Origin: Plantactinospora soyae
Lineage (GTDB): Bacteria > Actinomycetota > Actinomycetes > Mycobacteriales > Micromonosporaceae
Assembly (NCBI RefSeq): GCF_014874095.1
Contig: NZ_JADBEB010000001.1
Span: 2,294,001 to 2,358,000, forward strand
Direction of reading: 5' to 3'
Length of the DNA: 64,000 nucleotides
The notes beneath the pieces were generated by a model, which saw only the letters and a list, made by a program, of their open reading frames with translations, had not been told where the DNA came from and made no database searches. Made by a program: the position numbers and the translations under genes. Shown here one piece after another: positions 6,265 to 11,187 of this stretch (position 1 is the stretch's first letter; each line of letters begins with the position of its first letter).

Positions 6265-7032
6265 GTGCCCAACCATGCACTACGCGATGCACTAGCCGGT
6301 GCGAAGATGACGGAAGCCGACCTGGCCGGCATCGTCGGGGTCGACGCGAAGACGGTCTCTCGGTGGGTGTCGCCCGGGCGGATGCCGCACCCGCGACACC
6401 GGCATGCGGTCGCCGTCGCACTGGAGGTCGACGTGGACAACATCTGGCCGGAGGCCGTCCGAAGCGCCATCAAGACTGGGTACGACCGCGAGATCGTCTC
6501 GGTCTACCCACATAGGAGCTTCATCCCCCGCACGCTATGGCGAGACCTCATCGCCCACGCCGGTCATGATCTCGTGTTTGGCGGCTATACGTCTTACTTC
6601 CTATGGCTCGACCTGCCCGGTCTTCAAAACACACTGCGCCGCCGGGTCGAGGCCGGCGCTCGGGTCCGATTCCTCGTCGGTGATCAGGACAGCGCCATCA
6701 CGGCCGAGCGGGAGCGGATCGAGGGGGTGCCGCTCACCGTGTCGACGCGGATCCAGGTCACGCTTGACCAGATGGGCAAGCTTCGGGACCTGGCACCCCG
6801 GGTGCAGGGCCGATTCAGCGACAGGCACATCGCCCTGTCCGTCTTCCGGTTCGACAACGACATGCTGGTCTGCACCCACCTCGAAGATCAGATGGGCCAC
6901 GGCTCGCCTACCTGGCATCTACGTCGCCGCCAGGACGGCGGACTGTGGGACCGCTACGCCGCCCACATCGAACACCTGTGGGACATCGGCAGAGACATCT
7001 GGCCAGGCGGGGAGACGCCGCAGGACAGCTAG
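6265..7032 (+). CDS. XRE-family regulator with DUF5919-like C-terminal sensor domain
   Basis: This is a 255-aa protein with an N-terminal helix-turn-helix: about residues 1-50, with TEADLAGIVGVDAKTVSRWV as helices 2-3. A C-terminal domain of about 180 residues follows and contains FGGYTSYFLWLDLPGL, RVRFLVGD and a final YAAHIEHLWDIGRDIW. From memory this C-terminal layout is the DUF5919 family, common in actinobacterial XRE regulators; it resembles a degenerate phospholipase-D-like fold without the HKD residues. GTG 6265 is preceded by GAGGTGG. The gene is divergent from the two Cys-rich genes and upstream of the GntR gene, and probably autoregulates through the 6209-6240 operator. The stop codon lies inside a GCTA repeat. 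The ligand is unknown. Confidence 0.82.
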   Translation: MPNHALRDALAGAKMTEADLAGIVGVDAKTVSRWVSPGRMPHPRHRHAVAVALEVDVDNIWPEAVRSAIKTGYDREIVSVYPHRSFIPRTLWRDLIAHAGHDLVFGGYTSYFLWLDLPGLQNTLRRRVEAGARVRFLVGDQDSAITAERERIEGVPLTVSTRIQVTLDQMGKLRDLAPRVQGRFSDRHIALSVFRFDNDMLVCTHLEDQMGHGSPTWHLRRRQDGGLWDRYAAHIEHLWDIGRDIWPGGETPQDS

Positions 7033-7050
7033 CTAGCTAGCTGGCTAGCC
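7027..7050. repeat. CTAG-type tetranucleotide repeat, right copy
   Basis: This is a run of four GCTA-type units (AGCTAGCTAGCTAGCTGGC...) that includes the TAG stop of the XRE gene. It lies about 30 bp upstream of the GntR start, where it could act as an operator or simply be a slippage-prone simple repeat. Confidence 0.6.
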
Positions 7051-7079
7051 CCCTGTGGGCTGCAACCTAGCCTGCACCG

Positions 7080-7493
7080 GTGATCTACCCTCAGCAGCCA
7101 CCCGTCGGCTATCAGGAGATAGCGAGCACGCTGCGCACGGAGATTCACAGCGGCAAGTACCGGCCGGGCCGGCGCCTTCCCTCAGAGGGCGCGCTTGCCC
7201 AGACGTACGGGGTGGCGAGCAAGACCGCCCGCGCTGCCCTTAAGCAGTTGCGCGATGAGGGCCTCGCCGAACTGGTCCGAGGCTACGGTGTGGTTGTGCG
7301 GGAGCCGGTCGAGCCGCAGCTGATCGTCGCCGAGCCGGGATCGCAGGTGTGGGCACGCAACCCGACCCCGGAGGAGCGGCGAGCCCTGGACGTTCCGGAA
7401 GGCGTGCCGCTGCTGATCATCCGGAGCCCTGGCGGGCTGGATGAGGCGTACTCAGCGCACAGGCACCGGGTCGAGGTTCCGCCGCCCGAGTGA
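7080..7493 (+). CDS. GntR-family transcriptional regulator (short, truncated effector domain)
   Basis: This is a 137-aa protein with a typical GntR winged helix at about residues 8-75: IASTLRTEIHSGKYRPGRRL, PSEGALAQTYGVASKTARAA and then LVRGYGVVVRE. Only about 60 residues follow, ending RHRVEVPPPE, much shorter than the UTRA or FadR effector domains of full-length relatives. It may therefore be a natural short form or a truncated gene. GTG 7080 has no visible Shine-Dalgarno, and a TAGCCT at 7068-7073 lies 6 nt before it, so a leaderless message is possible. GntR regulators of this size often control transfer functions in actinomycete integrative elements (KorSA/TraR type), which suits the surrounding remnants. 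Confidence 0.85.
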   Translation: MIYPQQPPVGYQEIASTLRTEIHSGKYRPGRRLPSEGALAQTYGVASKTARAALKQLRDEGLAELVRGYGVVVREPVEPQLIVAEPGSQVWARNPTPEERRALDVPEGVPLLIIRSPGGLDEAYSAHRHRVEVPPPE

Positions 7494-7716
7494 TGCCGGC
7501 GCAGCAGGATTGACCCGATCGGCCACGAACGCCGCTGATGGCGGATCCGGTAGATGGGACCGCTGACCGTCTCTTGTGTCCGATTGATGCGCCGCGTCAA
7601 GCGTTCACCGGTGACGCTGGTTATGCGCAGCGGCCTTGGAGTGGTGGGCCTCTTCGCCTGCTCCACCCGGAGGAGGAGTGAGGGAGCCTTCCCCTATGCG
7701 GCCCCTTAAACATCAT

Positions 7717-7742
7717 CAGGACCGGCCCGAAAGCCGGTCCTG
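7717..7742 (+). terminator. Hairpin, 10-bp perfect stem, 6-nt loop
   Basis: The arms CAGGACCGGC and GCCGGTCCTG enclose CCGAAA. There is no T-tract, as is usual in actinomycetes. It lies 28 bp before the left tRNA-Ser repeat. That mirrors the terminator that precedes the right repeat at 10647-10682, so it may be the relic of an integrase-gene end. Confidence 0.65.
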
Positions 7743-7770
7743 ACCTACGCCTTTGCACTAGTCGATCACT

Positions 7771-7813
7771 GCGGAGGATACGAGATTCGAACTCGTGAGG
7801 GTGTAAACCCAAC
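7771..7813. repeat. Left attachment-site-like repeat (43-bp copy of tRNA-Ser 3' end)
   Basis: These 43 bases are identical to 10699-10741, the 3' end of the minus-strand tRNA-Ser(GGA) gene. The match continues for 10 more bases (7814-7823 against 10744-10753) after a 2-nt gap. The 5' part of the tRNA is missing, so this copy is not a functional tRNA. Direct repeats of a tRNA 3' end are the classic signature of site-specific integration. Together with 10699-10741 it delimits about 2.9 kb. Confidence 0.85.
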
Positions 7814-7917
7814 GCTTTCCAAGTCTGCGTCCGGCCGTACGTCAAGGATCGTCGGCGTCCGTGACCAGCGTTTGGCTGCCCGTCCGGCCCTACTAGTACG
7901 TCCCTGTACGACGACGA

Positions 7918-8169
7918 ATGAGACCACAACCGAGACCGGTGCTGACCCAATCACGGGGCGAGTGGGTGGCATGGGTCCGGCGCGATCTCGGTCCGGGCTG
8001 GTCCGTCGAACGCGATGGATTCACGGCGCGGACCGCCGTCGAGAGCGACGTCAACGAGGTCGATGGTTGCCGGCAAGTGAGGGGGGCACCCTCAAGTAGA
8101 GGCCATCAAAGAGTCCCCTATTCGCCCTATGCGAAGCCTTGCGCAGGATCCCTACCATGGGTGGCGTGA
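7918..8169 (+). CDS. Possible small ORF or gene remnant (83 aa)
   Basis: This is an open frame just inside the left repeat. The first 55 residues (including GEWVAWVRRDLGPGWSVERD) have a plausible protein composition; the tail ending PCAGSLPWVA does not. I recognise no family and see no strong ribosome binding site at ATG 7918. The stop overlaps a GTG at 8166, an alternative start for the pentapeptide gene (GTGA). It may be the decayed end of a longer gene cut by the integration event. Confidence 0.3.
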   Translation: MRPQPRPVLTQSRGEWVAWVRRDLGPGWSVERDGFTARTAVESDVNEVDGCRQVRGAPSSRGHQRVPYSPYAKPCAGSLPWVA

Positions 8170-9575
8170 CTAAAGGCCAAAGAATCTACATAGGAGCAGG
8201 TCTATTCAGTCTGATCGCATGCCTTGTGGCGATACCGTGGGATGCGACGAAACTGTCGGAGATCTGGGAGTCGACGGTTCGGCAGTGGCGGTATGTAGCC
8301 TTCACTTTCGCCGTAATCGCTGCATCCGTCGCGGTGGTAGGCGGAGCTCGTCAAAGAAGGCGAGTCGAGTATTCAGGGCAAGGTGCGAGATGGTTGTCGG
8401 ACCGCTCCATCGCCGCAGTGACGGCGATTGTCGCCGCAGTCGGGCTGGTCGTGCTGGGGATATTGCTTTTGGTAGCGGAAGCGGCTCCGCCCGCCGATCG
8501 CGCAAAACTTAGGCTGGACGCCATCAAGTATGGAATTGGCGTAGTTGCGAGCGGCGGCGCGGTCGCGGCTCTCTTGCTGGCTGTCCGTCGACAACGCCTA
8601 TCAGAAGAAGCACACCAACTTGCCTTACGCACTCAGGCACACAGCGAAACCGACGCTGCCGAACGCCGAGAGATCGAACTCTATATGAAGGCCGTCGAGC
8701 ATCTTGGCTCTACTGATGCGGCAGTACGTCTTGGTGCTATCTACGCACTGGAACGCGTTGCGCAGAACAACGAGAACCAGCGTCAGACAATAGTCAATGT
8801 ACTGTGCGCATACCTACGAATGCCATTCTCGCCGCCGTCAATCATCGATCCACTGACCGATAGGGTACCCCCACATCAGCGAAAGCGTGAGAATCTTTCA
8901 GTAGGGACAGAAGTCCCAAATGCTTCAAGTTCCGATCAACGAAGGAACGCCCATGAGGAACTTCTGGTCCGATCGACGGCCCAAGATGCCCTTCAGAAAC
9001 ACCTCAGTCGGGCTTCCGAAAGCTACTGGGGAGAACTTTCGTTGGATCTATCTGGGGCCACTCTGGTCAACTGGAGGTTAATCGATTGCACTATGAAGTC
9101 GGCGAACTTTGCCGGGGTTGTCTTCCATGGATATACGGATTTCAGGAGAGTGGACTTCAGACTAGGGGCCTCTTTTTCTGGCGCCGACTTTCTTGGCTTT
9201 ACTACCTTCAGTGACTCGGCCTTCTATGAAGACGTGCGGTTTAGCTATGCCCTATTCAACAACTTCGCAATCTTTGACAACGCGCACATCTACGGATACG
9301 TCGCCTTCCAAAATACGCACTTCGACGATGTTGTTCGGCTTGGCAACTGCCACTTTCCCCAAGGATTTACCTTCGAGGACAACGCCTTCTTTTATTGCAC
9401 GGTACGGCGCAGAACAGATCGAGTGCAGGAGTTTCCTCGCGGTTGGACCCTGACCAAAAAGAAGGGCAGCGATTTCCATGTTCTCTCGGAGTCGCGAGAG
9501 AAGGAATATTCAGAAGAGGTCAACAACAACTTTGATTCAGGCGATGACACGACGACAACCAGTTCGACCCGTTGA
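8157..9575 (+). CDS. Membrane-anchored pentapeptide-repeat protein (low GC)
   Basis: This is a 472-aa protein with three visible parts. The N-terminal membrane part has about four helices (residues 5-30, 43-60, 82-105 and 120-145). A helical linker carries AVRLGAIYALERVAQNNENQ and RQTIVNVLCAYLRMPF, a signature widespread in actinobacterial pentapeptide membrane proteins. The C-terminal quadrilateral-helix region has xFxx(A/D)xF-type repeats (for example GADFLGFTTFSDSAFYEDV). The role is unknown; relatives are often on genomic islands. ATG 8157 follows AGG by about 8 nt; GTG 8166 is the alternative. The base composition is clearly lower in GC than the surroundings (close to half A/T in many lines), a sign of recent transfer. 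It lies between the tRNA-Ser repeats. Confidence 0.8.
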   Translation: MGGVTKGQRIYIGAGLFSLIACLVAIPWDATKLSEIWESTVRQWRYVAFTFAVIAASVAVVGGARQRRRVEYSGQGARWLSDRSIAAVTAIVAAVGLVVLGILLLVAEAAPPADRAKLRLDAIKYGIGVVASGGAVAALLLAVRRQRLSEEAHQLALRTQAHSETDAAERREIELYMKAVEHLGSTDAAVRLGAIYALERVAQNNENQRQTIVNVLCAYLRMPFSPPSIIDPLTDRVPPHQRKRENLSVGTEVPNASSSDQRRNAHEELLVRSTAQDALQKHLSRASESYWGELSLDLSGATLVNWRLIDCTMKSANFAGVVFHGYTDFRRVDFRLGASFSGADFLGFTTFSDSAFYEDVRFSYALFNNFAIFDNAHIYGYVAFQNTHFDDVVRLGNCHFPQGFTFEDNAFFYCTVRRRTDRVQEFPRGWTLTKKKGSDFHVLSESREKEYSEEVNNNFDSGDDTTTTSSTR

Positions 9576-9745
9576 CAGGGTATCCAGCGTCAGTACCATC
9601 CGTCTGCCGCCCGACCCGCTCTGCGGCCCGGACCGTAACGACTCGTACGGGCGCTGGCGGTTCAACCGGCAGTCTCTACACTCGGAGTGACTGTCTGAGG
9701 GTCGCACTGTTGGGAGCTACCCCGACGATCAGGGAGGATGTCATA

Positions 9746-10018
9746 GTGACGCAGACGCCCCCAGATCCCGATGCAGAGTGGTGGACCACCTCAGACGTTG
9801 CCGCCTACCTTGGTCTTCGGATCGGCACTGTCAGCTCCTACCGGCAACGTGGCCAGGTGCCAGCACCCGACATGACCGTCGGCCGTACCCACATGTGGCG
9901 ACCAGCCCGGATCAACGAGTGGCACTCTGGTCGCCCTCGGCCTGGTGTCGGTGGCCGACCGGTGTCAGAGAACAGCAGCGACCGAGACCCAGCGTCCGAG
10001 TGCTTCTCGGGAAGGTAA
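9746..10018 (+). CDS. Excisionase-like helix-turn-helix DNA-binding protein
   Basis: This is a 90-aa protein with a MerR/Xis-type winged helix at residues 11-52: EWWTTSDVAAYLGLRIGTVS, then SYRQRGQVPAPDMTVGRTHM and WRPARINEWHSGRP. The start is GTG 9746 with AGGGAGG (9731-9737) 8 nt upstream; a longer open frame begins earlier without support. In actinomycete integrative elements such a protein sits directly upstream of the tyrosine integrase and directs excision, which fits the integrase stub at 10435. In this decayed element it may be only a leftover, although its own reading frame is intact. Confidence 0.78.
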   Translation: MTQTPPDPDAEWWTTSDVAAYLGLRIGTVSSYRQRGQVPAPDMTVGRTHMWRPARINEWHSGRPRPGVGGRPVSENSSDRDPASECFSGR

Positions 10019-10434
10019 GGGACTGCGGACGCCATACTTGCACCCCTCGACCACGACAATGCTCGTGCAGCTCTTACCGAAGCCTGTAGCTCAATCAACC
10101 TCGATCCCGTTGACGCTGAATTGATCCGTCTCGGCAAAAATGCGGTTTCCGACTACGCCGCGATCCAGTCATCGCCAGGGTTGGTCGGTCAGTGGACAGA
10201 TTTACCAGCGCCGAACGGGAAGTAACCGTCTCTCGCTGGCTTAGCACTGAACATGTGCCGGGTATTCGCGCACTGGACGTATCACAACCGATCGTTGCCC
10301 AGGGCCGGGTAATCTCCCTATGGGAATCCGCTTCCGATGTCGCCGAGTACGGAACGACCATAGAGCTAGGTGGCATCCTTCGTCGGCTACATGACCTCAG
10401 GGTGCCCGCAGGACTCTCGTTTCCTGCGCTGAAT
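10019..10434 (+). pseudogene. Aminoglycoside-phosphotransferase-family gene fragment, frameshifted
   Basis: Directly after the HTH gene the frame reads ...DAELIRLGKNAV, then loses one base at about 10147 and continues in the next frame as RLRRDPVIARVGRSVDRFTS and REVTVSRWLS, then LGGILRRLHDLRVPAG. This is the N-lobe order of APH-type kinases (LGxNAVxRL, RV, REV, a glycine-rich turn, LHxL). There is no start codon in frame between the HTH stop and the first recognisable residues, and the C-lobe (HGD, DxD) is missing. The fragment runs directly into integrase sequence at about 10435. Frame loss plus truncation mark it as a pseudogene. Confidence 0.65.
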
Positions 10435-10734
10435 CGCATGGGCTGGGCGACGACCGGGATGGCCGCCCGGTACCAGCACGTCACCGACTCCATCCGGTCG
10501 GACATCGCCAACCGGGTCGGTGGGCCCATCTGGAAGCAGGCGACGGACGACCAGGCTGAGCAGGGGACCGACACGGACCCTGACGACGGCCAGGCGGGGG
10601 GGCGCCCGTACCAGCCAACTGCGACCACAACTGAGACCGCAAGACCAACGCCCGGCAGGTCCGTTAGGATCTGCCGGGCGTTTCTGCTGCTCAGGCGAGC
10701 GGAGGATACGAGATTCGAACTCGTGAGGGTGTAA
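10435..10734 (+). pseudogene. Tyrosine integrase, C-terminal stub
   Basis: Beginning at MGWATTGMAARYQHVTDSIR (ATG 10438), the frame shows the end of a phage/AICE-type tyrosine recombinase: the box around the catalytic tyrosine (MAARYQHV), followed by RSDIANRVGGPIWK and a charged tail. The whole N-terminal part with the R..HxxR triad is absent. Upstream it is joined in frame to the phosphotransferase fragment, so the annotated stretch is a deletion junction, not a working enzyme. It ends next to a terminator hairpin and the tRNA-Ser gene, exactly where an element's integrase normally lies. Confidence 0.8.
10647..10682 (+). terminator. Strong hairpin after the integrase stub
   Basis: The 12-bp perfect arms AACGCCCGGCAG and CTGCCGGGCGTT have a 12-nt loop and are followed by TCTGCTGC. 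It lies between the integrase remnant and the convergent tRNA-Ser gene. Confidence 0.75.
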
Positions 10735-10741
10735 ACCCAAC
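10699..10741. repeat. Right attachment-site repeat inside tRNA-Ser
   Basis: This is the partner of 7771-7813 (43 identical bases). It covers the discriminator base, acceptor strand, T arm and part of the long variable arm of the tRNA-Ser gene. Integration here restores an intact tRNA, as usual for tyrosine-integrase elements. Confidence 0.85.
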
Positions 10742-10784
10742 ACGCTTTCCAAGCGTGCGCCCTAGGCCTCTAGGCGAATCCTCC
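10700..10784 (-). tRNA. tRNA-Ser (anticodon GGA)
   Basis: Read on the minus strand, it is an 85-nt class II tRNA. The acceptor GGAGGAT pairs with ATCCTCC with discriminator G. The anticodon stem CACGC/GCGTG holds the loop TTGGAAA, so the anticodon is GGA. There is a long variable arm, and the T loop reads TTCGAAT. CCA is not encoded. The gene is the target of the decayed integrative element on its 3' side. Confidence 0.95.
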
Positions 10785-10869
10785 GTCGGACAGGATACAG
10801 GCTCGGGACCGGTGGCCTACCCCGGCGGTCCCCCTGAAGATCGGTCAGCCCACCGGGTAGACTTCTCAG

Positions 10870-10959
10870 CACCCCCCGTGCGGCGCCCATCTCGTGAACC
10901 TCCCCAGGGCCGGAAGGCAGCAAGGATAAGCGAGCTCTGGCGGGTGCACGGGGGGCCTT
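10870..10959 (+). ncRNA. ffs: Signal recognition particle RNA (4.5S-type)
   Basis: The conserved SRP apical domain is visible: GTGAACC, then CCAGGGCCGGAAGGCAGCAA with the GGAA tetraloop, followed by the asymmetric loop strand AAGCGAGC. The ends pair as CCCCCCGTGC (10872-10881) with GCACGGGGGG (10946-10955), and a CCTTGTTCTT run follows as a terminator. It works with Ffh in membrane targeting. A position directly upstream of dnaX is the usual one in actinobacteria. The exact ends are estimated to within a few bases. Confidence 0.93.
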
Positions 10960-11187
10960 GTTCTTCCCTGACCAGCACCGGAACCTTCCCTGGCCGGCCG
11001 GAGTCGGCTGAGCCGGGCGAGCGTACCCGTCGGTCGTCAGCCGCCCTTCCCATGATCGACCCGGAGTACCCGAGCGGGTTCGAGCCTCGCATGATCGACG
11101 TGGAAATCGTCGGGCGCGCGTGACAGCCTGGCACTCGGCAGCGTGGCGACGGGTGGAGAATGGCCCGGTCGAGAGGAGGCGGGACGG

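Follow-up and report, generated by a model that had tools for sequence, protein, structure and literature searches.

The window analysed here, a single stretch of 64 kb, carries an intact tRNA-Ser(GGA) gene and, 2.9 kb to its left, a second copy of the tRNA's 3' end. This arrangement raises the question of what the intervening island once was, how it came to its present state and whether it could still move. The initial annotation had read it as a decayed integrative element trapped between tRNA repeats. Our analysis leads us to the confident view that the island is an AICE remnant at tRNA-Ser(GGA), a CIME-like attL-cargo-attR structure that has undergone internal deletion and would be unable to move by itself.

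The 43-bp exact repeat on which the annotation was built is present, at positions 7771-7813 and 10699-10741. A search of the 64 kb for a 27-bp piece of it, allowing up to three mismatches, returned two sites, both of them the repeat copies (0.00 expected from 100 shuffles). The match extends with a 2-nt gap through the anticodon loop to position 7832 at 92% identity, and the gapped repeat spans the 55-bp 3' half of tRNA-Ser(GGA), with the right copy inside the intact tRNA gene. The core copies end at ...CTTTCCAAG, and the next bases are TCTG in the left copy and CGTG in the tRNA. This attP-side edge pattern of the left copy was found in 21 of 300 genomes of the family, once in each. A second collection, which shares species with the first, yielded it in 18 stretches, three of them from Streptomyces and one from Salinispora. 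The left core of the window is alone among the 21 in lacking two bases, which fall in the anticodon stem, and all 18 cores of the second collection are full length. In 12 of the 14 fetched loci a second core copy was detected, differing from the tRNA copy at no more than 1 of 55 bp; none occurred within the fetched stretches of G105 and G239. The 64-kb window holds no third att copy. The genome is a single 9.7-Mb contig, in which the tRNA query matched the two repeat positions, and no others among the matches listed. The tRNA gene is followed by a small SRP RNA and then by a gene that we take to be dnaX. The coordinates of all features are collected in Table 1.

Table 1. Features of the tRNA-Ser(GGA) island and its borders, in window coordinates
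Feature	Position	Strand	Description
Hairpin left of attL	7716..7743		region 7700-7770, -23.6 kcal/mol
attL	7771..7823	-	displaced tRNA-Ser(GGA) 3' half; 55-bp core with 2-nt deletion, then attP-type edge TCTG
Left arm-type repeat pair	7918..7938	+	+148 from att start, as in related elements
Cargo gene, open	8157..9575	+	hydrophobic N-terminal part and pentapeptide repeats; 472 aa from first ATG
Small HTH protein gene	9746..10018	+	
APH-family phosphotransferase, N-terminal part	10019..10437	+	about residues 1-136 of 299-aa relative; two frames, pseudogene
Tyrosine integrase, C-terminal stub	10436..10638	+	about residues 365-424 of 424-aa relative; in frame with phosphotransferase fragment
Right arm-type repeat pair	10619..10639	+	-79 from tRNA, as in related elements
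Hairpin between integrase stub and attR	10647..10682		region 10630-10698, -45.9 kcal/mol
attR core	10699..10753	-	inside intact tRNA gene
tRNA-Ser(GGA), intact	10699..10784	-	

The GC content of the island is 59%, against 70% for the window, and its elements follow one another from the left as displaced core, left arm, pentapeptide gene, HTH gene, part of an APH gene, integrase stub, right arm, hairpin and tRNA. The pentapeptide gene was correctly recognized and is low in GC (54% versus 70% for the window); its product matched Pentapeptide_3 (E 2e-12) and none of the PADLOC models at E<=0.01. As a marker of the element type the gene was rejected, with matches in 133 of 200 family genomes. The small HTH gene had been called Xis-like, a designation that we do not retain: HTH_17 scored 20.9 bits, below the cut-off of 27, and the homologues lie away from int. 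They were found in 3 of 81 searched loci, 8.9-12.2 kb from the tRNA; two of these loci have a tRNA-side integrase that is not next to the homologue, and in the third no integrase was found. An intact element has, instead, a 69-aa HTH_17 gene directly before int. Speaking against the rejection are its matches to an 'excisionase and transcriptional regulator' PHROG (E 4.6e-6), alongside a DNA-binding PHROG (2.4e-19), and, weakly, to Xis_Gifsy_1 (0.012). The gene is probably an accessory regulator rather than the element's Xis.

The remaining two genes of the island are fragments. The phosphotransferase frameshift is real, as evidenced by the two frames needed to align the DNA with an intact 299-aa relative in congener G002; the frame changes near residue 41, and the relative itself is located 1.6 kb from tRNA-Ser(GGA). 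At 62-63% identity, the stub matches the end of a 424-aa tyrosine integrase that adjoins the same tRNA in G105, and the DNA of the right end aligned with the G105 locus at 74.5% identity over 259 bases. Some 60 of the 424 residues remain, so that about 86% of int is lost; the aligned part is without the HxxR stretch, and what it retains includes a tyrosine that we take to be the nucleophile. The in-frame junction of the two fragments could be confirmed, with one open frame (10192-10734) running through the kinase fragment and the stub, although a junction in frame has a one-in-three probability by chance and the frame has no evident start codon.

Paired short repeats of the type CGAGACnnnAACTGAGAC sit inside each end of the island, and we take them to be putative arm sites of the integrase. 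No third pair occurs in the 64 kb of the window. Both pairs could be read by eye in all eight long islands that were fetched, the left one at about 146-150 bp from the start of the att site and the right one close to the tRNA. For the five other short islands the corresponding by-eye counts were three for the left pair (one with an altered second half) and five for the right pair (one with an altered first half). A strict arm pair within 130 bp of the tRNA was present in 14 of 15 fetched loci that have a second core or tRNA-side integrase remains, and in 2 of 60 surveyed sites that served as the control (L106 and L136); the 60 regions together contain three strict pairs (964 kb, one strand). 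In L106 and L136 the full pair lies 85-91 bp from the tRNA, with neither a second core nor an integrase trace; these two sites are probably very old remnants.

Comparison with other genomes revealed long, short and empty forms of the same site. For 17 of the 21 islands with the attP edge the distance to the tRNA was resolved, among the tRNA matches listed; the other four (G273, G279, G283 and G286) have their ends on separate contigs. Eleven of the resolved islands measure 13-19 kb and gave an integrase match, and six measure 1.7-3.4 kb and have no full integrase inside (the window, G004, G177, G256, G294 and G297). All eight fetched long islands gave a full-length integrase match, the end of which lies 0.1-1.8 kb from the tRNA; for the other three (G071, G146 and G254) the integrase was taken from search matches. 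What is left of the integrase differs among the five other short islands. G177, G297 and G004 keep the C-terminal part, which in G004 lies at the left end; G256 keeps residues 205-260, and G294 a short C-terminal piece that fell below the limit of the later locus search. A 6.3-kb island in M. globispora gave no match to three integrases. In three long islands (L102, L103 and L105), 1.3-1.7 kb with other open frames separates the integrase from attR, and in one of them this interval contains an HTH-M78 peptidase.

The annotation had anticipated that related genomes would offer full-length relatives of the integrase and sites with the tRNA alone. Full-length relatives indeed adjoin the same tRNA in other genera. 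Our survey covered 60 tRNA-Ser regions from 59 genomes, each with about 12-15 kb left of the tRNA on long contigs among the matches listed, and in 56 of the 60 the vicinity of the tRNA was free of a second core and of such integrase traces. The four exceptions are L112, L134 and L162, with integrase fragments, and L151, whose second core copy is 6.6 kb away. With L106 and L136 also set aside, 54 sites have no second core, integrase trace or full arm pair. Seven of these 54 have half an arm motif no farther than 130 bp from the tRNA, so some of the sites counted as empty may be old remnants. One empty and occupied pair was identified: in G095 the tRNA directly adjoins sequence matching the G082 element's left flank (796 bp, 86%). 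The expected empty site was thus found at other flanks, but an empty form of the window's own left flank was not found in the genomes compared. None of six congeners has the window's island at the tRNA (G001 being covered by 3.5 kb of contig). The genome set holds one genome per species, and gain or loss at the level of strains is hence outside its view.

Terminator hairpins had been reported before both repeats. The hairpins are there, but as terminators they are not unusual: a pattern scan of 7400-11000 gave two sites, versus 2.5 in shuffled sequence, and one of the sites overlaps the left hairpin, the right hairpin being absent from the list. Positions 7688-7746 resemble the tRNA-Ser trailer of G298, a site without an island (59 bp, 78%), and over a shorter length also the stretch left of attL in G295. 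This likeness agrees with a reading of the left hairpin as the tRNA's own terminator. The notion that the right hairpin is surely borne by the element was dropped, a similar tRNA-side hairpin occurring in L116, L131 and L156, which were counted as empty; two of these three also have half an arm motif. The core of this hairpin recurs in many places, and similar hairpins were seen both at element ends and at tRNA-Ser sites taken as empty.

We propose the following course of events for the AICE remnant. An AICE would have entered by tyrosine-integrase recombination of its attP with the 3' half of tRNA-Ser(GGA). Integration would have rebuilt the tRNA at the right end, the 3' half of the present intact gene presumably coming from the element, and would have moved the original 3' half, with its trailer, to the left end. 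A subsequent internal deletion may have taken the replication and transfer genes together with most of int, fusing the int remainder to the broken kinase gene, and a 2-nt deletion would have damaged the left core. The remainder would be an attL-cargo-attR island that is not self-mobile and still has an open pentapeptide-repeat gene. Counted against this explanation are the lack, in the genomes compared, of an empty form of the window's left flank, the limit of the set to one genome per species, the integrase fragment at the left end of G004, which speaks against one simple deletion, and the right hairpin, which is not specific to the element. The earlier statement that the element is now fixed gains support from the extent of the int loss, the 2-nt deletion in the left core and a search of the genome with the G105 integrase, which returned no match at E<=1e-20. 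Judged from these three sequence features, the island is probably fixed.

The left flank bears on a different course of events. Congener G001 shares the HTH and GntR genes of 6265-7493 at 90% identity, and there they reach to 0.5 kb from the tRNA; the match of G001 to the window stops at 7497, and the sequences differ beyond that point. A distant relative (30%) of this HTH gene lies inside an AICE of G211, and 16 of the 60 surveyed regions have relatives of its N-terminal part to the left of the tRNA, at a distance of 0.5-5.8 kb. The pair is possibly an older element. A tandem CTAG run at 7028-7049, between the two genes, is also present in G001. In G001 the interval from the GntR gene to the tRNA contains an inverted kinase fragment and a left-arm motif that has no core with it (L021 reverse strand, 1396-1825); G001 carries a different decayed remnant at the same site. 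Rather than deletion within a single element, these neighbours could reflect recombination between different elements at one tRNA, that is, tandem accretion followed by collapse. Such a history is favoured by the remnant in G001 and by the HTH and GntR genes close to attL on its left side, the HTH gene having a distant relative inside an AICE, and accretion is described for CIMEs in the part of the literature source available (PMC5704250); it is weakened by the absence of a third att copy from the window. We give accretion a minor though appreciable chance.

The cargo of the short islands varies. G004 carries Shedu SduA (PADLOC E 4.1e-176), G294 a GmrSD_N protein (best PADLOC match NsnA, 3.5e-60) plus a HEPN protein, G177 and G297 acetyltransferases, and G256 a partial dehydrogenase together with a protein that matched no Pfam family. 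Two of the five other short islands therefore carry anti-phage-type genes (Shedu in one, GmrSD-like plus HEPN in the other). In G006 (L015 10949-14385), a DUF4062-NACHT gene and a STAND-TIR gene lie directly beside tRNA-Ser; the arm pair at this site is degenerate, and a second core is absent. Anti-phage-type cargo at tRNA-Ser islands is put forward as a lead only, the count having no control from other sites. One may go further and regard the tRNA-Ser(GGA) mini-islands as integrase-less AICE satellites, consisting of two cores, arm sites and one or two effector genes and dependent for movement on a visiting AICE's integrase, with the pentapeptide protein as a defence candidate; we hold this general proposal to be rather improbable.

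For the window itself the corresponding claim is that the island is a satellite mobilised in trans by the integrase of a visiting AICE of the same att specificity. Retention of both cores and both arm pairs would suit such a role, as would the number of short islands (six among the 17 resolved from the tRNA matches listed) and their cores, which are unshortened in the five others (one with 1 mismatch between copies). A full-length related integrase is seen in G177, outside the short island, about 4.6 kb left of attL and by another tRNA-like copy, and another in G002, where it shares 77% identity with the G105 integrase. A precedent also exists, in the accessible portion of the report, for an island that excises without recombination genes of its own (PMC3191183). 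The genome of the window, however, returned no match to the G105 integrase at the threshold given above, and the left core of the island is damaged. Integrase fragments also differ from one short island to the next, a pattern expected of random deletion, and two of the five others are without the left arm. We consider trans-mobilisation of the window island improbable; the other short islands might be moved in this way. Another reading, in which duplication of part of the tRNA gave rise to the 43-bp copy independently of any element, would agree with the lack of a complete element, but it is contradicted by the attP edge, the arm pairs, the integrase stub and the intact relatives, and its likelihood is negligible.

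The AICE remnant can be compared with known systems. Its att repeats derive from a tRNA 3' end, as in AICEs; a tRNA 3'-end att next to a tyrosine integrase is found in the AICEs pSAM2, pACPL and pMR2 and in plasmid pCM32 of Saccharopolyspora endophytica. The pCM32 integrase shares 52% identity with the G211 integrase, itself related to the stub, and an 89% identical tRNA-Ser core lies just after int (L189 14139-14193), which suggests that pCM32 and the island elements may share a target. Our literature search on the pSAM2 attB core, pCM32 and AICEs at tRNA-Ser found nothing informative. Unlike AICEs and pCM32, the island is without rep, tra, a complete int or an HTH gene of the 69-aa type before int, and its 2.9 kb compares with 11-17 kb for AICEs in the text available from PMC3364876. 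Instead of the complete integrase that characterizes IMEs and, beside att, AICEs, the C-terminal stub alone is present. Among the three main island frames scanned against Pfam, NCBIfam and PHROGs, none was named as a replication or FtsK-type transfer gene (AICE traits) or as a relaxase (the IME mobilisation trait).

CIMEs, as defined in the accessible text of PMC5704250, keep attL and attR and have lost the genes for integration and transfer. The window island likewise retains attL, with its 2-nt deletion, and attR, and the integration and transfer genes are lost as far as the three main frames scanned are concerned. Unlike a CIME with an ICE, the island has no accreted ICE that we could find, no match to the G105 integrase in its genome at E<=1e-20 and a damaged left core. 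The genomic island for microcin H47 also lies between direct repeats without its own recombination genes; according to the portion of that report available, it was shown to excise (PMC3191183). AICE remnants are mentioned in an AICE survey (PMC3218068) and a CIME has been described in Streptomyces (PMC8369830), each source being available in part; both are already known kinds. What is new is that stripped islands recur at tRNA-Ser(GGA), and we do not claim that this is absent from print. The locus clearly illustrates how a conjugative element can be reduced to stranded cargo, since intact, shortened and island-free forms all occur at one tRNA. It also marks tRNA-Ser(GGA) as a place to look for small islands, some of them with anti-phage-type genes.
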